Assembly: GCA_020845515.1 (NCBI GenBank)
Contig: JADLFQ010000036.1
Span: 1 to 41,850 of the forward strand
Source of the DNA: Anaerolineaceae bacterium
GTDB taxonomy: Bacteria > Chloroflexota > Anaerolineae > Anaerolineales > Anaerolineaceae
DNA: 41,850 bases
Direction of reading: 5' to 3'
Shown here: in pieces, positions 503-13,413 of the stretch
Numbering within the stretch: the first letter of the stretch is position 1
How the letters are laid out: every line of letters begins with the position of its first letter
Position numbers and translations under genes: made by a program
Notes under the pieces: generated by a model
The model's input: only the letters and a program-made list of their open reading frames with translations
What the model was told of the DNA's origin: nothing
Database searches by the model: none

Positions 503-1426
503 CTACTCGTTCACATAATCCAGCCACTCAGCTGACCGCGCCCCCTTTCCTTGAACCGTATCATGAAATAGACGCTGGATCCGGCGGGTGACCGGCCCCA
601 TTTTTCCACTACCGATTGGACGAAAATCAATCTCGGTCACTGCCACCACTTCGGCGGCTGTGCCGGTCACAAATACCTCATCAGCAATATACAACTGATC
701 TCGAGAAATCAATTCTTCTTTCACAGTGTAACCCAGGTCTTGCGCCAGAAGAATGATCGCATCGCGCGTAATTCCCTCAAGGATCGTGGCGGTATGCGGG
801 GTATAGACAATACCGTTCCGCACCAAAAGAAGATTCTCCCCGGTACACTCAGCCACATAACCCTGTGGATCAAGCATAATCGCCTCGTCAAAACCCAGGC
901 GCACGGAGTCCGTTTTTGCCAAAACACTGTTGGAATAATTGCCCGTGACTTTGGCCTTGGTCATGGCGATATTAATGTGATGGCGGGTGTAGGAGGATAC
1001 ATTTGCTCGTACACCTTTTTCCATGGCTTCTTCCCCCAGATATGCACCCCATCCCCACACAGCAATACCGGCGCGCGCCCTGCCGCCGTCAAGGTTCAAC
1101 CCCAGATTGTCACTTTCCTGAAAGATCAGCGGACGGATATAACCGCTCTGGATGTCGTTAGCTCGGATAGTTTCCTTGGTGGCCGCACAAAAATCATCCA
1201 CCGTAAAAGCCAAGTTACGAAAACCCAGAACCTTGGCTGAATTCACCAGGCGTTCCATGTGTTCCCGTAGTCGGAAGACCGCCGCCCCCCGGTCAGTGCT
1301 ATAGAAACGAATTCCCTCGAAGACTCCCAGGCCATAGTGCAAAGCAGCATTGAGAAAATGTACCGTAGCATCCTGATATGCCACCAGTTTTCCATCCATC
1401 CAAATCACTTTCGATTCAGTTCCCAT
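503..1426 (-). CDS. ilvE: Branched-chain amino acid aminotransferase
   Basis: This cytosolic, PLP-dependent class IV aminotransferase performs the last step of Ile, Leu and Val synthesis, exchanging the amino group of glutamate with the branched 2-oxoacids. The protein has 307 residues, the usual size. The motif TKAKVTGNY carries the expected PLP lysine (Lys159), and ECTGENLL follows near residue 193. The ATG at 1426 is preceded by AAGGAG, which overlaps the leuB stop region (13-bp gap). It is the last gene of the operon, followed by a terminator. D-amino-acid aminotransferases share the fold, but the sequence and context both favour IlvE. Confidence 0.95.
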   Translation of the reverse strand: MGTESKVIWMDGKLVAYQDATVHFLNAALHYGLGVFEGIRFYSTDRGAAVFRLREHMERLVNSAKVLGFRNLAFTVDDFCAATKETIRANDIQSGYIRPLIFQESDNLGLNLDGGRARAGIAVWGWGAYLGEEAMEKGVRANVSSYTRHHINIAMTKAKVTGNYSNSVLAKTDSVRLGFDEAIMLDPQGYVAECTGENLLLVRNGIVYTPHTATILEGITRDAIILLAQDLGYTVKEELISRDQLYIADEVFVTGTAAEVVAVTEIDFRPIGSGKMGPVTRRIQRLFHDTVQGKGARSAEWLDYVNE

Positions 1427-1439
1427 GCTCCCATACTCC

Positions 1440-2501
1440 TTATTGCAGGTTTCGAAGAATTGCTTCAGTCACTTGTGCAGTAGAGCAACTACCGCCCAGA
1501 TCCGGGGTGGTACAGCCATCCTCGATCGTCTTCTCAACTGCCGCCTCAATCTGCGCGGCTTCTGTTCCCAGCTTAAGCGAATAGCGCAGTAAAAAAGCCG
1601 CACTCACAATCGTACCAATCGGATCGGCGATGCCTTTCCCGGCAATATCGGGCGCTGAACCGTGAATTGGTTCGTACATCCCAGGTCCGGAACTGCCCAA
1701 AGAGGCTGAAGGCAGCACACCCAGCGACCCTGTCAGAATAGCCGCCTCGTCCGAGAGAATATCGGCAAACAAATTCTCAGAAACAACAACATCAAAGCTT
1801 GAGGGGTTGGCAACCAATCGCATGGCAACCGAATCAACCAGCGCGTGTTCCAGCGTAACATCGGGGTATTCCTTGCCTATTTCAACGGTAATTGCCCTCC
1901 ACAAACGGGAAGATTCAAGGACGTTGGCTTTATCCACCGATGTCACCTTTTTTCGCCGGCCGCGCGCCAGGTCAAAAGCCATGCGCACAATGCGGTCAAT
2001 TTCATAATCATGATATTCGAGGGTATCAATGGCTTTCTCACGCCCATCTGTCACAAACCGCCCGCGCGGCTGGCCAAAATACAAACCGCCCGTAAGTTCC
2101 CGCACAATGATCATATCCACGCCAGCCAGTCTTTCCGGCCTGAGTGGAGAAGCGCCAGCAAGCTTGGGATAGATCTTAACCGGACGCAAATTAGCAAATA
2201 AGCCCAGGCTCTTACGCAATCCAAGCAAACCTTGTTCGGGGCGAACCGGCGCTGCCGGATTGTCCCATTTCGGCCCCCCAACCGCGCCGAGCAGGATGGC
2301 ATCCGACTGCTTGCACGCTTCCAGCGTCTCTTCTGTCAGCGCAACGCCATATCGGTCAATCGAGCAGCCGCCAATTAGATATTCGGAAAATTCAAAACGG
2401 TGACTCCCGCGCTTCGCAATAAACTCCAGCACCTGATGCGCCGCAGCCGTAATTTCCGGGCCGATGCCATCGCCCGGCAACAAAACAATCTTTGCATTCA
2501 C
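1440..2501 (-). CDS. leuB: 3-isopropylmalate dehydrogenase
   Basis: LeuB oxidises and decarboxylates 3-isopropylmalate to 2-oxoisocaproate with NAD+. In this operon it probably also handles the methylmalate intermediate of the citramalate route to isoleucine. The protein has 353 residues. The N-terminus LLPGDGIGPEIT, the motif ELTGGLYFGQPRG and the nucleotide-site motif YEPIHGSAPDIAGKG identify the isopropylmalate/isocitrate dehydrogenase family, and the gene context fixes the substrate. The start is GTG at 2501, placed 6 nt after GGGAGGGAG; the ATG two bases further on is out of frame. It lies 19 bp after cimA and 13 bp before ilvE. Confidence 0.95.
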   Translation of the reverse strand: MNAKIVLLPGDGIGPEITAAAHQVLEFIAKRGSHRFEFSEYLIGGCSIDRYGVALTEETLEACKQSDAILLGAVGGPKWDNPAAPVRPEQGLLGLRKSLGLFANLRPVKIYPKLAGASPLRPERLAGVDMIIVRELTGGLYFGQPRGRFVTDGREKAIDTLEYHDYEIDRIVRMAFDLARGRRKKVTSVDKANVLESSRLWRAITVEIGKEYPDVTLEHALVDSVAMRLVANPSSFDVVVSENLFADILSDEAAILTGSLGVLPSASLGSSGPGMYEPIHGSAPDIAGKGIADPIGTIVSAAFLLRYSLKLGTEAAQIEAAVEKTIEDGCTTPDLGGSCSTAQVTEAILRNLQ

Positions 2502-2520: not shown

Positions 2521-4080
2521 TTATTGGCAAACCATCAATCCGTATTCCACCGAATCCACCAGAGCTTGCCAGCTTGCTTCGATGATATTGGAGCTCGCGC
2601 CAACCGTGCTCCAACCCTTTTTCCCATTACGCGTTTCGATCAAAACTCGTGTGACAGCTTCAGTTCCATTGTGCCCATCCAGAATGCGCACTTTGTAATC
2701 CGCCAGATGGAAATGGCTGATGGCATTATAACGTCCTGAAAGAGCTTTGCGAAGTGCCAAATCCAGCGCATTCACCGGGCCATTGCCTTCGGCGGCCGTG
2801 TGGATAACTTCTCCGTCCACGCGCACTTTGACCGTAGCTTCCGATAACAAGCCGCGTCCCTGGCGATGTTCCACCAGCGCCGAGAAATCAATCAGTTCAA
2901 AGGGACTGGCATAACCCTCTTCCTGCCGTTTGAAGAGCATGACAACCGAAGCTTCGGCAGCCTCAAAAGAAAAACCCTGAGATTCCAATGTCTTCACGGT
3001 GGCAAGCACCCGGTTGACCTGCTCCTCTCCTTGTATTTTAATGCCGTACTCCTCCGCCTTGCTAAGCAGGTTCCCGCGTCCCGAAAGTTCAGAGACCAGA
3101 ACGACCATCTTGTTCCCCACCAGCGAAGGATCAATATGCTGATACGAGTTGACATTACGGCGGATCGCCGCTACATGGATGCCGCCCTTGTGGGCGAAAG
3201 CCGCACGGCCTACATAAGGCAGATGATCATCAAAAGAGAGGTTTGCCAGTTCCGCGACATAGTGAGAAAGTTCAGATAAGCAATGCAGTTTCCCGGGCGG
3301 TAGCGCCTGAAAACCCAGCTTCAGCTCTAAATTGGGAATGATCGAACACAGATTGGCATTTCCGCAGCGCTCACCATAACCGTTGATCGTACCCTGCACC
3401 TGGATACAGCCTTCTTTAACCGCAGCAATCGCATTAGAAACCGCACATTCGCTGTCATTGTGGGTATGGATGCCAAGCGGCGTCTGTACATGCGCCCGCA
3501 CGGCACGCACCTTCTCTGTGATCTCCCAAGGCATAGTGCCGCCATTGGTATCACACAGGACAAGCGTTTCCGCCCCTGCACGGGCAGCTGCCTGCAAAGT
3601 TTTTATTGCATAATCTGCGTCTTCTTTGTAACCGTCAAAGAAATGTTCCGCATCATAGATCACACCGCGTCCCTGTGCTCGTAAATAAGCCACGCTTTCT
3701 TCGATCATGCGCAGGTTGTTCTCTAGTGTGGTGCGCAAGACCTCTTTAACATGCAAAATAGAGGTTTTGCCCACCACCGTGCAATACGGGGTTTCAGCTT
3801 CGAGCAGCGCCTGAATATTCTCATCCTCTGCCGGAGACTTACGAGCACTGCAAGTGGAACCAAAAGACGCGATCTTCGCATGCTTCCAATCCATACGGGC
3901 AGCGCGCTTAAAAAACTCCACATCCTTTGGGTTCGAGCCAGGCCAGCCCCCTTCAATGAAATCCACACCCATCTCATCGAGGCGTTTGGCGATATTAACT
4001 TTATCCTCGCAAGATAGGGAAATATCCTTACGCTGTGTGCCGTCTCGGAGGGTCGTATCGTAAATTTGTATTTTTTGCAT
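2521..4080 (-). CDS. cimA: (R)-citramalate synthase
   Basis: CimA condenses pyruvate with acetyl-CoA to citramalate, the first step of the threonine-independent route to 2-oxobutyrate and isoleucine. The N-terminus IYDTTLRDGTQRKDISLS and the following DEMGVDFIEGGWPGSNPKD are characteristic of the CimA branch of the DRE-TIM family. HTHNDSECAVSNA carries the metal-binding His pair, and a LeuA-type regulatory domain fills roughly residues 370-519. I start at the ATG at 4080 (519 aa), preceded by AAGGAAG. A TTG at 4101 overlapping the leuD stop would add seven residues. Its neighbours leuD and leuB supply the next two steps of the same route. No ilvA is visible in the window. Confidence 0.93.
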   Translation of the reverse strand: MQKIQIYDTTLRDGTQRKDISLSCEDKVNIAKRLDEMGVDFIEGGWPGSNPKDVEFFKRAARMDWKHAKIASFGSTCSARKSPAEDENIQALLEAETPYCTVVGKTSILHVKEVLRTTLENNLRMIEESVAYLRAQGRGVIYDAEHFFDGYKEDADYAIKTLQAAARAGAETLVLCDTNGGTMPWEITEKVRAVRAHVQTPLGIHTHNDSECAVSNAIAAVKEGCIQVQGTINGYGERCGNANLCSIIPNLELKLGFQALPPGKLHCLSELSHYVAELANLSFDDHLPYVGRAAFAHKGGIHVAAIRRNVNSYQHIDPSLVGNKMVVLVSELSGRGNLLSKAEEYGIKIQGEEQVNRVLATVKTLESQGFSFEAAEASVVMLFKRQEEGYASPFELIDFSALVEHRQGRGLLSEATVKVRVDGEVIHTAAEGNGPVNALDLALRKALSGRYNAISHFHLADYKVRILDGHNGTEAVTRVLIETRNGKKGWSTVGASSNIIEASWQALVDSVEYGLMVCQ

Positions 4081-4097
4081 AGCTTCCTTTTCGCGGC

Positions 4098-4691
4098 TCA
4101 AACGGCCATTTGGCTCTTTTCATAAGCCGAAATTTGCTCTTCCAAACCAAGCAGGTAGCCCAACTCATCCACGCCATTCAGCAGGCAGGTTTTGGAAAAA
4201 TCATCAATAGGAAAATACGCCACAGGTTCACCAGCCACCTTGAGCGTTTGTGTGCCCAGGTCAATCTCCAATTCGCTCTGCGGCTCATTTTCCAGCCTCC
4301 TGAGCAGGCTGTGATAATAATCTGGGCTGACAACAACAGGCAGCAACCCGTTTTTCAAAGCATTGTTGCGAAAGATATCCGCGAAACTGGTAGAAATGAT
4401 CGCGCGAAAGCCAAAACCAGTCAGCGCCCATGGGGCATGTTCACGCGAGGAACCACAGCCAAAGTTATCCCCCGCGACCAAAATTGCGGCGCCCCGGCTT
4501 TCCGGCTTATTCAAAACAAAATCCGGCTTGGGAGAGCCATCCGGCAGATAGCGCCAGTCGGAAAACAGTTTTTCACCCAGGCCTGTCTTGTCAGTCACCT
4601 TTAGGAAACGCGCTGGAATAATCTGATCAGTATCAACATGATCTAGCGGCAAAAGGACTGCACGAGATTTTAAGAGAGTAAATTTATTCAT
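4098..4691 (-). CDS. leuD: 3-isopropylmalate dehydratase, small subunit
   Basis: LeuD is the swivelling small subunit that joins LeuC to isomerise 2-isopropylmalate to 3-isopropylmalate (and citramalate to methylmalate). The protein has 197 residues, close to the E. coli length. The motifs DHVDTDQIIPARFLK near the start and GDNFGCGSSREHAPWAL in the middle are diagnostic. The ATG at 4691 is preceded by AAGGCGG. It follows leuC by 17 bp and precedes the cimA ATG by 17 bp. Confidence 0.95.
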   Translation of the reverse strand: MNKFTLLKSRAVLLPLDHVDTDQIIPARFLKVTDKTGLGEKLFSDWRYLPDGSPKPDFVLNKPESRGAAILVAGDNFGCGSSREHAPWALTGFGFRAIISTSFADIFRNNALKNGLLPVVVSPDYYHSLLRRLENEPQSELEIDLGTQTLKVAGEPVAYFPIDDFSKTCLLNGVDELGYLLGLEEQISAYEKSQMAV

Positions 4692-4708: not shown

Positions 4709-6136
4709 CTAAGGTTGCATCAGGGTGCGCGGGTCGGTGATTTTACCAGTCAGTGCAGTTGCAGCGGCTGTTAGCGGGCTGGCAAGAAAAGTCCTGCCCC
4801 CTTTCCCCTGCCGGCCTTCAAAATTTCGGTTGCTGGTGCTGACGGCATATTGCCCCGGTTCAAGTTGGTCGCCGTTCATCGCAATACACATACTGCAACC
4901 CGGCTCACGCCATTCTGCTCCGGCTTCCTTGAAGATCTGATCCAACCCTTCGGCTTCGGCCTGTCGTTTAACGCTATAGGAGCCAGGGACCACCAACACA
5001 CGCATTTGGGGGGCAATCTTACGCCCTTTGAGCAGTGTGGCTGCCAGACGCAGATCCGAAATGCGGCCATTGGTGCAACTCCCGATAAAGACCACATCCA
5101 CAGGATGGCCGAGCAACTGCTGGCCTGCTGTCAGTCCCATATAATCCAGGGCTTTTTGCAGTCCGCCTTTTTGAGCCTCATCGCCAACGGTATTTGGGTC
5201 GGGCAGCTTTCCGTTCACCGGAATGCTCATGCCCGGGTTGATGCCAAAAGTGACAACCGGCTCCAGATCGGAGACCTCCAACGTAACCTCATGGTCGAAA
5301 ACTGCTCCCTCGTCTGTAACCAATTCTTTCCAGCGGGCAAGGCTGCGCTCCCATTCTTCACCTTTTGGCGCAAACACACGTCCGGCGAGGTAATCAAATG
5401 TCTTTTGATCCGGCGCAACCAACCCAGCGCGCGCTCCTGCTTCGATGGTCATATTGCACAACGTCATCCGTTCTTCCATTGTCATGGCTTGAACAGCAGG
5501 GCCGCGATATTCAAAAACATACCCAACGCCACCACCCACTCCAATCTTTCGAATGAGCGCCAAAATTACATCTTTCGCGGTGACACCAGGTGACAGCTCA
5601 CCCTCAATATTGACCGCGCATGTCTTCGGCTGCCATTGCAGCAGGCATTGAGTTGCCAGGACATGCTCGACCTCACTCGAACCAATACCAAAAGCCAGTG
5701 CACCAAAAGCGCCGTGAGTAGCGGTATGGCTGTCGCCGCAGACAATGGTCATCCCCGGCTGGGTAAGGCCCAACTCCGGGCCAATGACGTGTACGATACC
5801 CTGATTCTCACTCTGCATCCCATACAGTGGGATGCCAAATTCATCACAGTTGGCTTCCAACTGGCGGATCTGGCGCACACTCATTTCATCCGCAAATGCC
5901 AGGCGGCCTATTTTACTGCCATCTTCACTGCGGGTTGGAACGCCATGATCAATGGTCGCCACTGTTTTGCTGGGTTGCCGCACTTTGAGGTTTCGGTTTC
6001 GCAAGCCGGAAAAAGCTTGGGGGGAGGTAACCTCATGCACCAAATGCAGATCAACATATAAAACCGCTGGAGAATTAGGCTGTTGGGTTACAACGTGTCG
6101 CTCCCAGATCTTATGAAACAGGGTTTTAGCTGTCAT
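4709..6136 (-). CDS. leuC: 3-isopropylmalate dehydratase, large subunit
   Basis: LeuC is the aconitase-family large subunit carrying the catalytic [4Fe-4S] cluster. Expected cysteines lie in [10 protein letters not shown] and in [11 protein letters not shown]. The motif [30 protein letters not shown] is typical of the bacterial LeuC type. With the ATG at 6136 it has 475 residues. That ATG overlaps the stop codon of the preceding small gene (TAATG) and has no visible ribosome-binding site of its own, so translation is probably coupled to that gene. A GTG at 6148 is a possible but less likely start. Confidence 0.95.
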
Positions 6137-6324
6137 TACGCGTGCCACATGCTATTCGAAAGAGATTTCGGTTCATTCGTCTCGTCCATTGAGTCTTGTG
6201 ATTTACGCGCGCCAGCACACATAATCGCTTCTGCATCCCAGCCAGCCGGTATGGTATGAGGTTCGTCAAATGGGTAAGCATAATTATCATAGAACTCAGG
6301 ATGATTACAATTCACAGGGTTCAT
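6136..6324 (-). CDS. Small protein (62 aa) coupled to leuC
   Basis: I do not recognise this protein. It begins [20 protein letters not shown] and ends ...SNSMWHA. It is rich in Asn, Pro, Glu/Asp and aromatic residues, has a Cys-x-His near the start, and contains only one leucine, so it is not a leucine-sensing leader peptide. Two facts support a real gene: AAAGGAGGA sits 6 nt before the ATG at 6324, and its TAA overlaps the leuC ATG (TAATG) while leuC has no ribosome site. It lies 38 bp after leuA. A role as a translational coupler, a LeuC partner or a small regulator is speculation. Confidence 0.75.
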
Positions 6325-6362: not shown

Positions 6363-7982
6363 TTAGAGTGCTTCAGCGGCCACCTTTTCCGGGCTTCCAT
6401 ACCTGCCGGCGGCGACAATCATCTTGTTCAATGCCGAAAGATATGCTTTTGCGCTGGCAACAATAATATCGGTATCTGCCCCATAACCACCAAACGTCAA
6501 CGGTTGGCCAATTTCTTTTTGGGCATCCCAGATGGATTTGCCATTTTCTCCCTGGATACGCACAGTAACCTCTCCCAGGGCATCAATCCCCTCCGTAACG
6601 GCGTGAATAACAAATTCTTGCAAAGAGTTGGGGCATTGAACAATGGCATTGATGGCATTGTACGTGGCATCCACTGGCCCGGTTCCAATACTGGCATGGG
6701 TGCGTAAATCTCCGGATGGGTCGCGCAGTCGCACTGAAGCAGTCGGCATGCCCATTGTTCCACAAGATACTTGCAATCCATCCAGGGCAAACAATTCATA
6801 CGGTTGGTAAAGTTCATCGGAAACCAGGGCTTCCAGGTCGGCATCAGTGATCGTTTTCTTCTTATCTGCCAGAAGCTTAAAGCGTTCAAAGACCTGATCC
6901 ATTTCCTCCTCGTCAAGTGAGTAGCCGAGCGAGGTCAGACGGACTTTCAAAGCATGGCGGCCGGAATGCTTCCCCAGTACCAGTTTGCTTTGAGAAGCGC
7001 CTACATCCTCCGGGCGCATAATTTCATAGGTCTGGTTGTTCTTAAGCATGCCGTCCTGATGAATGCCAGCCTCATGCGCGAAGGCATTGGCGCCAACAAT
7101 TGCTTTATTGGGCTGAACGTTCATGCCTGTATAGTTGCTAACGAGCTTGCTCATGCGGGTGATCTGGCCGGTTTTAATACCAGTGGTGAGCCCCATGGAA
7201 GCATGGCGGGTGTGCAGCGCCATGACCACTTCTTCCAGCGCCGTATTGCCAGCCCGCTCACCAATTCCATTGATGGTAACCTCAGCCTGCCGCGCGCCAG
7301 CCCTTAAGCCTGCCAGGGTATTGGCAGTGGCCAGGCCGAGGTCGTTATGACAATGCACCGAGACCACACAATTTTCTATACCCTCTGTGTTGGCGATGAT
7401 CCCGGCAATCAGCTTGCCGAACTCATCCGGCATGGTATAGCCAACCGTGTCTGGAATGTTGAGTGTGCGGGCGCCGGAGCGGATGGCCTCAGCCAGCACC
7501 TGATACAAAAATTCGGGGTCGCTGCGGCCGGCATCTTCAGGGCTGAACTCAACATCCGCACACAAGCTGCTTGCAAACGCCACCATCTCACGTACTCGTT
7601 CCAAAACCTGTTGGCGCGTCATCTTCAACTTGTACTGCATATGAATTTCTGAAGTGGCAAGGAAGGTGTGGATGCGCGGGCGCGCGGCGGGTTGAACTGC
7701 CTCCCATGCCTTTTCGATATCCCCTTTGGTGGCACGCGCCAGGCCGCAAATGATCGGAGGAAGGCCCTCGCCACTCATATTTCCAACCTCCATGGCAATT
7801 TTACGCACCGCCTCCAGATCATCGGGTGAAGCAGCCGGAAACCCGGCCTCCATGACATCCACACCCAATCGTGCCAGCCCGCGCGCTACTTCCAGTTTCT
7901 CGGCGCTCGTCATGGTTGCCCCAGGAGACTGCTCGCCGTCTCTTAAAGTCGTGTCAAAAATTCGAACGTAGTTTTCTTCCAT
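6363..7982 (-). CDS. leuA: 2-isopropylmalate synthase
   Basis: LeuA condenses 2-oxoisovalerate with acetyl-CoA, the committed step of leucine synthesis. The motif [17 protein letters not shown] opens the DRE-TIM barrel. [17 protein letters not shown] supplies the metal-binding His pair, and [10 protein letters not shown] is the second signature. The last 150 or so residues form the LeuA regulatory domain that usually binds leucine, so feedback inhibition is likely. The start at 7982 (539 aa) has GGAGGAAAG directly upstream. An upstream in-frame codon at 8024 lacks support and would overrun most of the ilvC-leuA spacer. Confidence 0.95.
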
Positions 7983-8028
7983 CTTTCCTCCGCATTTGAG
8001 CGCCATGCTGCGCCCGCATTTCAAGCTG

Positions 8029-9153
8029 TTAGGCGTTTTTCACCAGTTCTCTGGCCGTAGGGGTCGCATCCGTTTCAGCAGTGGAAGAATGCTCTGACAA
8101 TTCTGTCTTTTTCCAGTTCTCTGGCCGCAAGGAGCGCACCTGCACGCCTGCCTGCCACATTTCAGAATCCCGAATCTGCTTTAACTCCACTTCCAGCTTG
8201 TCGCGGTAATCGGCAGCGCTGTTTGACTCAAGCACAATTCGGGTCTCTTCTCCGGATTCCACACTTTCATACAGTTTTTCATAGACCGGAAGAACTGCAT
8301 CGCGGAAGCGATGCCGCCAATCCAAAGCACCGCGCTGGGCGGTGGTGCTGCAATTGCCATACATCCAGTCCATGCCATTTTGTGCAACCAAGCGAATTAA
8401 GCTTTGGGTCAGCTCTTCCACCGTCTCATTAAATGCTTCGCTGGGGCTGTGGCCATGTTTGCGCAGCGTGTTGTACTGGGCTTCCATTACACCTGCCAGA
8501 GCGCCCATCAAAATGCCGCGTTCCCCTACCAGGTCGCTGTAAACCTCATGCTCGAAATTTGTTCGGAAAAGGTAACCCGAACCGATGGCAATGCCCAGGG
8601 CAAGGGTTCTCTCGGTGGCACGTCCGGTGTAATCCTGATAAACCGCAAAACTGCTGTTGATGCCACTGCCATCCAAAAAGTTGGTGCGCACACTTGCACC
8701 GGAACCTTTGGGGGCAACAAGGATTACATCCACATTTTTCGGAGGGACAACGCCAGTTTGATCGTGGTAAACGACCGAGAAACCGTGCGAGAAGTAGAGA
8801 GCATCTCCCTCATTAAGGCATGCTTTAACAACCGGCCAGACCATTTTCTGAGCAGCATCAGAAAGCAGATACTGGATTACCGTACCGCGCCGGGCAGCTT
8901 CTTCAATGGAAAATAAATTTTTGCCGGGCTGCCAGCCATCTTTAAGAGCTTTGTCCCACGATCGCCCCTGTTTCAAACCGACAATCACATTGATCCCGTT
9001 GTCGCGCATGTTCAAAGATTGCGCCACTCCCTGTGTGCCATAGCCCAATACGGCGACGACCTCATTTTTGAGAACCTGGCGTGCCTTCTCAAGAGGAAAT
9101 TCATCTCGAATAACCACTTCTTCTTCTACGCCGCTAAAATTCATTTTTGCCAT
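8029..9153 (-). CDS. ilvC: Ketol-acid reductoisomerase, fungal/Bacteroidetes-like type
   Basis: IlvC converts acetolactate or acetohydroxybutyrate to the dihydroxy acid with NADPH and Mg2+. The protein has 374 residues. The Rossmann motif is GYGTQG, and [18 protein letters not shown] carries metal ligands. The stretches [31 protein letters not shown] and the end [17 protein letters not shown] resemble, from memory, yeast Ilv5 and Bacteroidetes IlvC rather than the short class I enzymes with IGYGSQGHAHA. A low-complexity Ser/Thr/Glu tail of about 25 residues follows. AAAGGAG precedes the ATG at 9153. It lies 56 bp after ilvN and 46 bp before leuA. Confidence 0.93.
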
Positions 9154-9209: not shown

Positions 9210-9740
9210 TCAGACGGTAATACGGTTAAAATCGCTCACCGGGATGGGGTCCACCAGCAGGGAAGATGCACCGCGCGCCATACTGACCAGTCCGGTTCGC
9301 ACCATTTCAATAATTCCCCAGGGCTTAAGGACTTCGATAAACCCCTCGATCTTTTCTTCATCGCCTGTAATCTCGACCATCAACGAGTTACTATTTACAT
9401 CCACAATACGCGCACGGAAAACGTCCACAATCTGCATGATATGAGAACGGCTTTCGTCATTAGCCTGTACTTTGATCAGCGCCAGGTCACGGTCAACTGA
9501 TGGCGTTGCCGTCAGGTTGTATACCTGAATTACATTCACAAGTTTATAAAGGTAAGCGGTAAGTCTCTCAATATTTAACTGGTCACTATCCACCACAATC
9601 GTCATGCGGGAAACATCCGGGTTTTCGGTGCGTCCGACAGCCAATGAGTCGATGTTAAACGCGCGTCTTCGGAAAAGGGAAGCAACGCGGTTCAAAACGC
9701 CCGGTTTATTCTCAACAAGTACTACAAGTGTGCTTTTCAT
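9210..9740 (-). CDS. ilvN: Acetolactate synthase, regulatory small subunit
   Basis: This is the small subunit that activates the IlvB catalytic subunit and gives it valine feedback sensitivity. The protein has 176 residues. The N-terminal ACT domain, with the motif VENKPGVLNRVASLFRRRAF, is typical, and the C-terminal half is the conserved ALS small-subunit domain. The start at 9740 is preceded by AGGAG overlapping the ilvB stop codon (9-bp gap), so the two subunits are translated closely together. The symbol ilvH is used for the same family. Confidence 0.94.
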   Translation of the reverse strand: MKSTLVVLVENKPGVLNRVASLFRRRAFNIDSLAVGRTENPDVSRMTIVVDSDQLNIERLTAYLYKLVNVIQVYNLTATPSVDRDLALIKVQANDESRSHIMQIVDVFRARIVDVNSNSLMVEITGDEEKIEGFIEVLKPWGIIEMVRTGLVSMARGASSLLVDPIPVSDFNRITV

Positions 9741-9749
9741 CTGGTTCTC

Positions 9750-11483
9750 CTATTTCGCTTTGCTTTGTGCTTCTTCTTTCTCAAACGCTGTGTTCGGCAC
9801 TGGCCGGCGGATCATTTGGTGCAGGCTTGCACCCGCCGGCACCATCGGGTAAACGCTGTCTTCCTTTTCCACCTTAAATTCGATCAGCACGGTGCCTTCA
9901 GTCTGCCTGGCTTGCTGGATGGTCTTTTCAATATCAGCGCGCTGGGTGACCAGCAAACCGGTCAGTCCGTGCGCTTCAGCAATTTTGACAAAATCAGGGT
10001 TGCGCATGGGGGTTGCAGAGTAGCGGCGGTCGTAGAAGAATTCCTGCCATTGCCGCACCATACCCATGTAGCCGTTATTAATAAGCGCGATAGTGATCTT
10101 GATGCCCTCCTGTGCGGCGGTGGAAAGCTCAGCCTGCGTCATCTGAAAACCGCCATCGCCCACAATCAGCCAGACCTCTGCATCCGGATTGCCCATCTTA
10201 ACGCCCACCGCGGCAGGCAGACCAAAACCCATCGTCCCCAGCCCTCCCGAACTAATGAAGCGGGCAGGTTTATCCAGCTTGTAATACTGGGCAGCCCACA
10301 TCTGGTTTTGACCGACATCTGTAACAATGATCGCATCTCCATCAGTGCATTTCCATAACTCATCAATGACATGAGCCGCGTACAGGTGTTTATCTCCGGA
10401 GTCGGTCAGAATGCTATGGGCGCTGGCTTCGTCCTTCATCTGCTGAATTGTCTCAACCCATTCACGGTGTTCACAAGGTTGAATAAAATCAATCACCTGG
10501 CGTAGTGTGTGCCGTAAATCTCCAATCAAAGCGGCATCCACAGGCACGTTTTTATTGATTTCAGAAAGATCAATATCAAACTGGATTTTACGAGCTTTGG
10601 GAGCATAAGTTTTTACGTTGCCAGTAACGCGGTCATCAAAACGCATCCCAAAAGCAATCAACAGATCGGCTTCCTGAATCGCGGTGTTGACCCAAGATTC
10701 TCCATGCATGCCCATCATGCCTAACGCCAGCGGGTGGCTGGCAGGAAACGCACCCAACCCAAGAAGAGTCATGGCAACCGGCGTATTCGTATGCTCCGCG
10801 AAATCCAACACCTCATCCATGGCGCCACTGGCGATGATGCCATTTCCCGCCAGGATAACCGGCCGGCGGGCCGATTGGATCATATCTACCACCTGCTGAA
10901 CATGCCCGCGCGAAAGGGTGGGATCGGGGCGATAACCCGGGAGCTTGATGGGGGAATCGTCATACTCCCACTCAATCGCATTTTGTTGGGCATCTTTGGA
11001 AATATCAACCAGAACAGGTCCCGGGCGGCCTGTACGAGCAATGTAAAACGCTTCGCGTATGGCAGAGGAAATCTCGTTTACATCCGTTACCAGATAATTA
11101 TGTTTTGTGATTGGCAGTGTAATGCCAGTTACATCAATCTCCTGGAAAGCGTCGTACCCGATCAACTTGCTGGCCACCTGTCCGGTAATGAATACGGTAG
11201 GCGAGGAATCCATCATCGCGGTTGCAATTCCAGTCACCATATTGGTCGCGCCAGGTCCGGAAGTGGTCATTGCCACACCCACCTTCCCGGTGGAACGGGC
11301 ATATCCGTCAGCGGCATGGGATGCGCCCTGCTCATGCCGGACGAGCACATGGTGAATCGGGTAGTCCGGCAGCGCATCATACAAAGGCAGGTTCGCGCCC
11401 CCTGGGTAACCAAATACAACCTCCACCCCCTCCCGTATCAGGCATTCCCACACAATTTGTGCACCAGTCTGTTTCTTCTTCAT
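9750..11483 (-). CDS. ilvB: Acetolactate synthase, catalytic large subunit
   Basis: This ThDP-dependent enzyme joins two pyruvates to acetolactate (Val and Leu route), or pyruvate and 2-oxobutyrate to acetohydroxybutyrate (Ile route). The protein has 577 residues. RHEQGASHAADGYAR contains the catalytic Glu51. The ThDP/Mg motif is GDGGFQMTQAELSTA ending in INN near residue 470-500. The three-domain pyrimidine, central and pyrophosphate order is intact. The start ATG at 11483 has AAAGGAG seven bases upstream. It lies 12 bp after ilvD. Confidence 0.96.
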   Translation of the reverse strand: MKKKQTGAQIVWECLIREGVEVVFGYPGGANLPLYDALPDYPIHHVLVRHEQGASHAADGYARSTGKVGVAMTTSGPGATNMVTGIATAMMDSSPTVFITGQVASKLIGYDAFQEIDVTGITLPITKHNYLVTDVNEISSAIREAFYIARTGRPGPVLVDISKDAQQNAIEWEYDDSPIKLPGYRPDPTLSRGHVQQVVDMIQSARRPVILAGNGIIASGAMDEVLDFAEHTNTPVAMTLLGLGAFPASHPLALGMMGMHGESWVNTAIQEADLLIAFGMRFDDRVTGNVKTYAPKARKIQFDIDLSEINKNVPVDAALIGDLRHTLRQVIDFIQPCEHREWVETIQQMKDEASAHSILTDSGDKHLYAAHVIDELWKCTDGDAIIVTDVGQNQMWAAQYYKLDKPARFISSGGLGTMGFGLPAAVGVKMGNPDAEVWLIVGDGGFQMTQAELSTAAQEGIKITIALINNGYMGMVRQWQEFFYDRRYSATPMRNPDFVKIAEAHGLTGLLVTQRADIEKTIQQARQTEGTVLIEFKVEKEDSVYPMVPAGASLHQMIRRPVPNTAFEKEEAQSKAK

Positions 11484-11495
11484 CCTTTTACTCCT

Positions 11496-13175
11496 TTAGA
11501 AAGATAAATCATTATCCAGAACAGCCCCACGATCTGCACTGGTGACAAAACGAGCATAGCGTCCCAGCCACTTGCTCTTTGTACGCGGATAAAAAGCTGG
11601 CAAAGCCTGTAAGCGGCGGTCAATCTCCTCTTGCGGCAGACGAACATCCAGCCGGCGGGCTTCCAGGTCAATTTCGATCCAATCACCGGGCTGCACTGCG
11701 GCAATCGGGCCGCCAGCAGCTGCCTCAGGCGAAATATGCCCAATGCAAGCACCGCGCGTACCGCCGGAAAAGCGGCCATCCGTAATCAGCGCTACTTTCT
11801 CGCCCAAGCCCATCCCCATGATCGCGCTGGTTGGGCTGAGCATTTCCTGCATGCCGGGACCGCCGCGCGGTCCTTCATAGCGGATCACAACCACATCGCC
11901 GGCCACCACCTCTTTGGACATAATGCCCGCCATGGCTTCTTCCTGTGATTCATAAATGCGGGCAGGGCCTCCAAACTTCCACATCGCCGGGCTGACACCC
12001 CCGGTTTTAACCACCGACCCATTCGGGGCAAGATTGCCGAACAAGCAAGCCAGGCCGCCTGTGTTGGAATGCGGGTTGGTATGAGGACGGATCACCTCAG
12101 TATCCAACACCTCGGCAGCTTGTATAATTTCTCCCAAAGTGAGGCCCGAGACGGTGGGACGGTTGAGATGTAAACGGCCCGTTGCAGCTTGTACCTCCTT
12201 CAGAATGGCAGGGATCCCACCGGCGCGATGAATATCTTCCATATGCCAGTGACCCGATGGACTAACTTTCGAAAGGTACGGCACCCGGTCAGAGATGGTG
12301 TTGAGGCGTTCGAGGGGATAATCAAAACCGGCCTCCTGAGCAATTGCCAGGCCATGCAGAACGGTGTTGGTCGAGCCGCCCATCGCCATATCAAGGGCGA
12401 AGGCATCATCCATCGCATCCAACGTGACAATATCGCGCGGTTTGAGGTCCCGCGCCACCAAGTCCAGGATCAGACCGCCAGCTCGCGTTGCAAGCGCCTC
12501 GCGCTCCGGGGTCAGCGCCAAAGCAGAACCATTGTAAGGCAGCGCCACACCCAGCACTTCCATCAAACAGTTCATGCTGTTTGCTGTAAACATGCCGGAG
12601 CACGAACCGCAGGCCGGGCATGCAAAGTCTTCCAGGACTTTCAGCCGCTTCTGATCTATCCGGCCTTGCTGGTATGGACCAACACCCTCAAAAACTGAAA
12701 CCAGATCAATCACTTCGCCATCCGGCGTGCGGCCGGCCGGCATCGGCCCGCCGGAGACAAAAACCGTTGGAATGTTAAGTCGCATTGCCGCCAACAGCAT
12801 ACCAGGCGTAATCTTGTCACAATTGGGGATGCAAACCATGCCATCAAAACAATGCGCTTCGATCATTGTCTCGATACTGTCGGCAATCAACTCCCGGGAA
12901 GGGAGAGAGAATTTCATGCCTCCATGTCCCATCGCGATCCCGTCGTCCACGCCAATGGTATTGAACTCAAACGGCACCCCTCCGGCAGCCCGTACAGCCT
13001 CTTTCACAAAACGGCCAAAGGATTGCAGGTGGACATGACCGGGAACAATATCCACATAGGAATTAACCACTGCGATAAACGGTTTCCCCATATCGGCGTC
13101 GGTAACACCGGTCGCCTTCAGCAGTGCTCTATGAGGAGAACGCGCAAAGCCTTTTTTTATTTGATCTGATCGCAT
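11496..13175 (-). CDS. ilvD: Dihydroxy-acid dehydratase
   Basis: IlvD dehydrates the dihydroxy acids to the 2-oxoacid precursors of Val, Leu and Ile; it is an Fe-S enzyme. The protein has 559 residues. Ligand cysteines are expected in [12 protein letters not shown] (Cys119) and [17 protein letters not shown] (Cys189/Cys192), and Lys121 is the conserved lysine. The early motif reads [13 protein letters not shown], with Gly where [2Fe-2S] enzymes have a Cys. This resembles the E. coli-type enzyme, so the cluster type is uncertain. The ribosome site GGAGG (13180-13184) directly follows the T-run of the attenuator hairpin, so ilvD is the first structural gene under that control. Confidence 0.96.
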
Positions 13176-13184
13176 GAAACCTCC

Positions 13185-13220
13185 AAAAAAAAACCACCGC
13201 CCGATTGGTTCGGGCGGTGG
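13185..13220 (-). terminator. Attenuator terminator hairpin before ilvD
   Basis: On the minus strand, CCACCGCCCG (13211-13220), a 7-nt loop (13204-13210) and CGGGCGGTGG (13194-13203) form a perfect 10-bp GC-rich stem. Nine T residues follow (13185-13193), then at once the ilvD ribosome site. Placed between promoter and first gene, it works as an attenuator rather than an end-of-gene terminator. It is flanked by A/T runs on both sides, so it could also stop plus-strand transcription. Confidence 0.93.
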
Positions 13221-13271
13221 TTTTTTTGTTTTTTTGACTTTCTTTACCTACAATCTTCTTCCACCCGAACC
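13207..13271 (-). promoter_or_regulatory. Predicted antiterminator pairing of the ilv leader
   Basis: Leader-RNA bases GGUUCGGGUGG (13261-13271), which lie inside the last codons of the leader peptide, can pair with CCGCCCGAACC (13207-13217). That is 11 pairs with a single G-U. The second segment is the loop plus most of the 5' arm of the terminator stem, so the two structures exclude each other. A ribosome stalled in the Ile/Leu/Val run would leave 13261-13271 free and favour read-through. The pairing is read by eye; no folding energy was computed. Confidence 0.75.
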
Positions 13272-13351
13272 TCAAGAGGGCCTTTAATAATAAGGACAAC
13301 AATAATAAGGGAGAGGAGGCTAATTAGGGAGATGAAGAGATTGTTTATCAT
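13244..13351 (-). CDS. ilv operon leader peptide (35 aa), Ile/Leu/Val-rich
   Basis: The gene starts at ATG 13351 and stops at TAA 13244-13246. Residues 5-22 read [18 protein letters not shown]: 14 of 18 are branched-chain residues (6 Ile, 6 Leu, 2 Val), with Ile, Leu and Val codons in runs. This is the hallmark of ribosome-mediated attenuation, as in the enterobacterial ilv leaders. A weak AGG lies 6 nt before the ATG. The stop codon is 23 nt from the terminator stem, and the antiterminator segment overlaps codons 27-31. The peptide probably has no function of its own, though its hydrophobic core also looks like a small membrane helix. Confidence 0.9.
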
Positions 13352-13384
13352 TTTTGGCCTGTTTAGCTGCAATTAACGTTTATG

Positions 13385-13413
13385 ACTATAACATAAGTAT
13401 AAACGCTCGTCAA
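13385..13413 (-). promoter_or_regulatory. Sigma-70-type promoter of the ilv-leu operon
   Basis: The -35 is TTGACG (13408-13413), the spacer is 17 nt, and the -10 is TATAGT (13385-13390), matching the consensus at 5/6 in each box. AT-rich DNA with A/T tracts lies just upstream (13414-13440) and may act as an UP element. The predicted start is near 13378, about 27 nt before the leader-peptide ATG. Confidence 0.85.

Follow-up and report, generated by a model that had tools for sequence, protein, structure and literature searches.

For Proteobacteria, Actinobacteria, and some Firmicutes, ribosome-mediated transcription attenuation has been documented well. In the ilvGMEDA operon of Escherichia coli, a leader (ilvL) rich in isoleucine, leucine, and valine codons and overlapping antiterminator and terminator structures precede the ilv genes. 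An attenuator of the Corynebacterium ilvBNC operon, also described as the ilvB-II motif, has experimental support; its branched-chain-rich leader open reading frame (ORF) is accompanied by terminator, antiterminator, and anti-antiterminator hairpins (PMC10272879, PMC11857589). Predicted leader peptides followed by terminators have been described before ilvB in actinobacteria, in which the LEU element, a conserved pseudoknot, precedes leuA (PMC1262725). In Staphylococcus aureus, an ilv peptide described as leucine-rich provides a case of leader-peptide attenuation of branched-chain biosynthesis outside Proteobacteria (PMC5794164), and in the Salmonella mgtCBR operon two leader-ORF attenuators that respond to different signals, ATP and proline, are placed serially before one operon (PMC3641672). 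Published comparative work on attenuation deals with Actinobacteria (PMC1262725), Proteobacteria and some Firmicutes (PMC2965389), and Staphylococcus (PMC5794164); a search of the open-access literature for leader-peptide attenuation in Chloroflexi returned nothing relevant.

Here, a stretch of 41,850 nucleotides (the window) from an Anaerolineaceae bacterium of the phylum Chloroflexota, represented by a 2.95-Mb assembly that is 85% complete, is considered. Judged from its sequence, the region upstream of ilvD is very probably a classical ribosome-mediated transcription attenuator of an ilvD-ilvB-ilvN-ilvC-leuA-leuC-leuD-cimA-leuB-ilvE operon. It resembles the ilvGMEDA system of E. coli in its multi-amino-acid leader, its overlapping antiterminator and terminator, and the length of its leader, but differs in that it heads an ilvD-led, combined ilv-leu-cimA operon in Anaerolineales, in that its leader ORF itself contains segment 2, the 5' half of the antiterminator, and in that the window contains no Rfam family matches. 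An earlier note on this DNA had emphasized that the leader would sense three amino acids at once; codons for all three are indeed present, although the property is not a novel one, as E. coli ilvGMEDA does the same. The branched-chain-rich leader ORF is shared with Corynebacterium ilvBNC, from which phylum and first gene differ (there ilvB), and the combination of predicted leader peptide and terminator with the actinobacterial ilvB leaders. In contrast to the leucine-rich peptide of S. aureus, isoleucine, leucine, and valine occur together here. Serial attenuators like those of mgtCBR also occur in Anaerolineales, except that both leaders of such pairs are rich in Ile/Leu/Val. The kind of attenuator is itself known; within the open-access literature, the system appears to be new for Chloroflexota, and the earlier note's statement that no description was known for Anaerolineae holds to that extent.

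The ilv-leu-cimA operon

The operon occupies one strand of the window:

11496..13175, minus strand: ilvD, dihydroxy-acid dehydratase, first structural gene (TIGR00110, 811.6 bits, cut-off 618)
9750..11483, minus strand: ilvB, acetolactate synthase large subunit (TIGR00118)
9210..9740, minus strand: ilvN, acetolactate synthase small subunit (NCBIfam)
8029..9153, minus strand: ilvC, ketol-acid reductoisomerase (TIGR00465)
6363..8024, minus strand: leuA, 2-isopropylmalate synthase (NCBIfam)
6136..6324, minus strand: 62-codon ORF between leuA and leuC, strong ribosome site (AGGAGG)
4709..6148, minus strand: leuC, 3-isopropylmalate dehydratase large subunit (NCBIfam)
4098..4691, minus strand: leuD, 3-isopropylmalate dehydratase small subunit (NCBIfam)
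2521..4101, minus strand: cimA, citramalate synthase (TIGR00977, 716 bits, cut-off 450)
1440..2501, minus strand: leuB, 3-isopropylmalate dehydrogenase (NCBIfam)
503..1426, minus strand: ilvE, branched-chain aminotransferase (NCBIfam)

Ten enzyme genes of what had been presented as an 11-gene operon are confirmed by NCBIfam models; the eleventh is the 62-codon ORF, for which no significant Pfam match was found. The true start of leuC is probably the ATG at 6136. As a separate observation, several relatives have a prephenate dehydratase gene 3' of cimA and in the same orientation, apparently in the ilv-leu-cimA operon region (G035:C229, G021:C10, G004:C1, and G039:C119).

The leader region

Upstream of ilvD, the following features are read in the direction of transcription:

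13385..13413, minus strand: sigma-70-type promoter with 10/12 consensus matches; TTGACG at 13413-13408, spacer of 17 nt, TATAGT at 13390-13385
13244..13351, minus strand: leader peptide ORF, 35 codons plus stop, with orthologous leaders before ilvD in relatives
13327..13343, minus strand: segment 1, CAATCTCTTCATCTCCC, candidate protector arm, paired with 13251-13266 in the minimum-energy fold
13286..13339, minus strand: control-codon cluster, leader residues 5-22, of which 14/18 are Ile/Leu/Val
13261..13271, minus strand: segment 2, GGTTCGGGTGG, antiterminator 5' arm, contained in the leader ORF; duplex -23.5 kcal/mol
13207..13217, minus strand: segment 3, CCGCCCGAACC, common to antiterminator (2:3) and terminator (3:4)
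13185..13224, minus strand: intrinsic terminator hairpin and nine-T tract (core 13194-13220, T tract 13185-13193)
13180..13184, minus strand: GGAGG ribosome-binding site of ilvD, assigned from the sequence

The elements described in the earlier note occur in the order it gave and are located on the minus strand, which it had left unstated. Its promoter, its 35-codon ORF with the Ile/Leu/Val-rich residues 5-22, and its 11-bp pairing of 13261-13271 with 13207-13217 were all recovered. Its terminator likewise carries nine T residues that abut the ilvD ribosome site, but the stem has 11 pairs instead of the ten stated. In composition the leader ORF stands alone: it is the only one of 445 small ORFs in the window to reach at least 12 Ile/Leu/Val in 15 residues, a density found in 0/13,272 cases in shuffled windows.

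One of the 11 antiterminator pairs, between GGTTCGGGTGG (13271-13261) and CCGCCCGAACC (13217-13207), is G-U. The duplex, compared with -10.5 +/- 2.6 kcal/mol in shuffled leaders, is also stronger than in synonymous recodings of the leader (z -3.8). The terminator core, CCACCGCCCGA-ACCAA-TCGGGCGGTGG (13220-13194), can be extended by A-U pairs and has a stem of -27.1 kcal/mol; the minus-strand call comes from a hairpin search of our own, as the consensus hairpin scanner lists the terminator on the plus strand only. The nine T residues (13193-13185) adjoin the GGAGG, with the ilvD ATG at 13175. Antiterminator and terminator are mutually exclusive through segment 3, and the fold of the region is equalled by only 1 of 200 dinucleotide shuffles.

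These parts suggest a familiar scheme. RNA polymerase would start just upstream, and a ribosome would translate the leader. With charged Ile-, Leu-, and Val-tRNA in ample supply, the ribosome would reach the stop codon and disrupt segment 2, so that segments 3 and 4 pair next to the U-tract and transcription stops before ilvD. If charged tRNA for even one of the three were scarce, the ribosome would instead stall among the Ile/Leu/Val codons, some 20 nt before segment 2; segments 2 and 3 would then pair, the terminator would be blocked, and the operon would be read. Under this scheme the leader would be translated, the operon would respond in vivo to each of the three amino acids, and its expression would actually be governed by the attenuator. 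Against it, no strong Shine-Dalgarno sequence accompanies the leader ORF, and the leader stop codon comes only after segment 2, so that a ribosome paused at the stop covers segment 2 only in part.

In the textbook design of such attenuators, a protector pairing (1:2) restores termination when the leader is not translated. Segment 1 may have this role, since the pairing is present in the minimum-energy fold of the window; across relatives it is weak (mean z -0.84), a further point against the scheme. A hairpin within the control codons (e.g. GGUCCUUA-UUAU-UAAGGACC), striking in some loci, was set aside as a candidate pause hairpin because it barely exceeds synonymous shuffles (mean z about -0.8).

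Conservation before ilvD in Anaerolineales

Loci of ilvD were taken from relatives, named genome records, and a sample of the phylum, and the 97 in which ilvD reached about 65% identity or more and sufficient upstream sequence was available were scored. A complete leader-antiterminator-terminator unit precedes ilvD in 94 of these 97 loci of Anaerolineales relatives, a count, like the others given here, across related sequences that do not represent independent events. The remaining three are Flexilinea flocculi (L096), in which a unit is recognizable by eye; L028, cut at a contig edge; and L101, which has none. Isoleucine, leucine, and valine occur together in 100 of 101 non-identical leaders, and variation among relatives is mainly among the codons for these three residues; the peptide sequence drifts while its Ile/Leu/Val content is kept. 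A promoter with at least 10/12 matches lies upstream of the leader ORF in 64 of 99 homologous leaders, as compared with 1.8% of mononucleotide-shuffled regions.

Constraint on the leader is specific to its reading frame: pN/pS is 0.52 in frame, but 0.97 and 0.89 when the other two frames are read. The terminator shows changes on both sides at 8 of 10 pairs in a 64-sequence alignment. For the antiterminator, bulges shift the register between lineages, and a swap test with foreign terminators was therefore used in place of column-wise covariation. Over 101 leader units the duplex averages -19.8 kcal/mol with the unit's own terminator, -15.2 with those of other species, and -12.5 for dinucleotide-shuffled leaders; it lies more than 2 sd below the shuffles in 82 of the 101 and is stronger than in synonymous leader recodings (mean z -2.0). 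The sequence checks that the earlier note had proposed come out in its favor. An Ile/Leu/Val-rich ORF under in-frame constraint is kept upstream of ilvD in nearly all relatives, and of the two stems the terminator covaries, while for the antiterminator the support is the preference for its own partner over foreign ones. Together, the frame-specific constraint, the terminator covariation, and the matched antiterminator pairing support its proposal of ribosome-mediated attenuation.

Protein-level constraint could also be expected if the ORF coded for a small, hydrophobic membrane protein with a function of its own, lying by chance before a constitutive terminator, and the peptide is very hydrophobic and about the length of one membrane span. 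Such an origin is nonetheless highly improbable: the sequence drifts freely with the amino-acid class alone retained, the composition tracks the gene that follows (as described below, Ile dominates at cimA and Phe/Tyr are used at pheA, while Trp/Met/Tyr are added at Liv transporters), and the pairing of the ORF's 3' end with its own terminator surpasses that of synonymous recodings.

The geometry of the unit bears on a further explanation. From the last control codon to segment 2 the median distance is 19 nt (10-90%: 13-24), which, with the ribosome footprint at its established value, leaves segment 2 free at the stall position; the leader stop codon lies a median of 16 nt beyond segment 2. 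It is a general observation that branched-chain operons of other phyla are under T-box or protein control, and the terminator here might respond to a T-box, a protein antiterminator, or a riboswitch, with the ORF incidental. This is very unlikely, given that the ORF itself forms the antiterminator, with a constant spacing between it and the control codons, and that a scan of the whole window at Rfam gathering thresholds matched neither a T-box nor any other leader family. Scarcely credible is a role for leader translation in controlling ilvD translation, by sequestration of its ribosome site or by reinitiation, rather than transcription, for although the T tract directly adjoins that site in the window, the hairpin-to-ilvD distance varies from about 14 to about 500 nt across loci and nearly all of them have a long T tract and a terminator-type stem, a combination that fits termination and not sequestration.

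The attenuator occurs in tandem in some genomes. Two complete units stand in series before ilvD in 6 of the 97 loci (L027, L104, L106, L109, L111, and L112), and tandem units were seen by eye in L041 and L042; both leaders of the tandem pairs are Ile/Leu/Val-rich. L245 likewise has a serial pair of leader-ORF attenuators upstream of ilvD.

Outside Anaerolineales, the same logic is realized with different sequences before ilvD in several families, for example with the leader MSNRPAFIIISNLLSLVIVVITRSLLCGRG, segment 2 GGGAGGGGCT, and the terminator arm AGCCCCTCCC; in many other Chloroflexota families of the phylum sample, no attenuator was found before ilvD. In one family outside the class (L136-L140), the interval between attenuator and ilvD holds another short, conserved ORF, MRNLLTLLVTMITPRPQFIILQPIPIWSCRVGRRLR, which has a good ribosome site and lies about 235-360 nt before ilvD.

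The same core before other genes

The core of the ilvD-type leader units was made into a covariance model, and a search of 121 relatives with it gave matches at E of about 1e-6 or better in about 53 genomes. Several of the strong matches lie upstream of genes other than ilvD. Many matches near 30 bits, or to the terminator end only, proved to be ordinary terminators or to have no leader and were discarded. Leaders were called with a detector that replaced a stricter one, which had missed known Liv-transporter leaders.

Detached cimA genes in two genomes (L240, L246) have leader attenuators of their own that are Ile-dominated, MPANLIVIIIISISALIIIESPFPVGLAEVEIKR and MSATLSNPQSIIFGIIIIESHPLPGRMEKAG. 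Among the leaders before ilvB, one has Leu and Val with no Ile (MFNLLVVLLVVLLVLVLVESSFPVGLAKVRSSR), and others are Leu/Val-rich with some Ile. The core is also carried by operons for Liv-type transporters of hydrophobic amino acids (Peripla_BP_6, two BPD_transp_2, and two ABC_tran), mostly in genomes without a close ilvD, where the leaders combine Ile/Leu/Val with Met/Phe/Tyr/Trp, as in MLNISLAIIIIMLYWFLHIIMEDQIQVGRAEKIKTK (L232, L233, L235, L236, L238, L244, L248, L250, L252, L259, L269, L270, L279, L312, and L328). Within residues 2-24, Trp occurs in 15/15 Liv-type leaders versus 2/101 ilvD leaders, and Met is found in 13/15 versus 1/101, in a Liv-type set that was obtained partly through a hydrophobicity filter requiring neither residue and most of which was first found by the model alone. 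ECF-type transporter operons in five genomes (L243, L249, L256, L262, and L275) combine the core with mixed hydrophobic leaders; in L307 the ECF-type transporter is followed by a fused ABC pair, CbiQ, and a gene of the acetamidase/formamidase family. The ECF S component scores near or just above the Pfam cut-off.

The window's own genome provides a different set of control codons. At G000:C27:217-439 (L292), a promoter, a Phe/Tyr leader (MDNAHLYVYGYFYFAAYAFISRNSAWAK), and a terminator precede the prephenate dehydratase gene (pheA), with a counterpart, MKNVQAYSFYFYFAAYGFISMLRAGRD, in the genus's other genome (L377). Among 30 loci searched for pheA leaders, they were found in this genus only, and no convincing Trp leader was found before trpE in relatives.

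Such changes of control codons with the downstream gene (Ile-dominated for cimA, Leu/Val only for one ilvB, Phe/Tyr for pheA) themselves argue for the attenuator reading at ilvD. Taken together, it is fairly likely that Anaerolineales possess a family of attenuators in which a common antiterminator-terminator core is joined to gene-specific cassettes of control codons, sometimes with two units in series, the cassettes being Ile/Leu/Val for ilvD, Leu/Val-rich for ilvB, Ile-dominated for cimA, Ile/Leu/Val with Met/Phe/Tyr/Trp for Liv-type and ECF transporters, and Phe/Tyr for pheA.

Implications

These observations extend ribosome-mediated attenuation to Chloroflexota, where it forms a system spanning a whole order and has more divergent instances in other parts of the phylum; its leader ORFs are short enough for the usual gene callers to miss. 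The tandem copies allow a direct test of whether control is additive or sharpened. Of greater interest than the ilv attenuator itself is the apparent exchange of codon cassettes across genes. Since the sensor codons differ according to the gene that follows, leaders become readable as specificity labels for the transporters and pathways of uncultured bacteria. If the family reading is true, leader codons would predict the purpose of an uncharacterized transporter or pathway, and leaders before transporters would be general sensors of hydrophobic amino acids.
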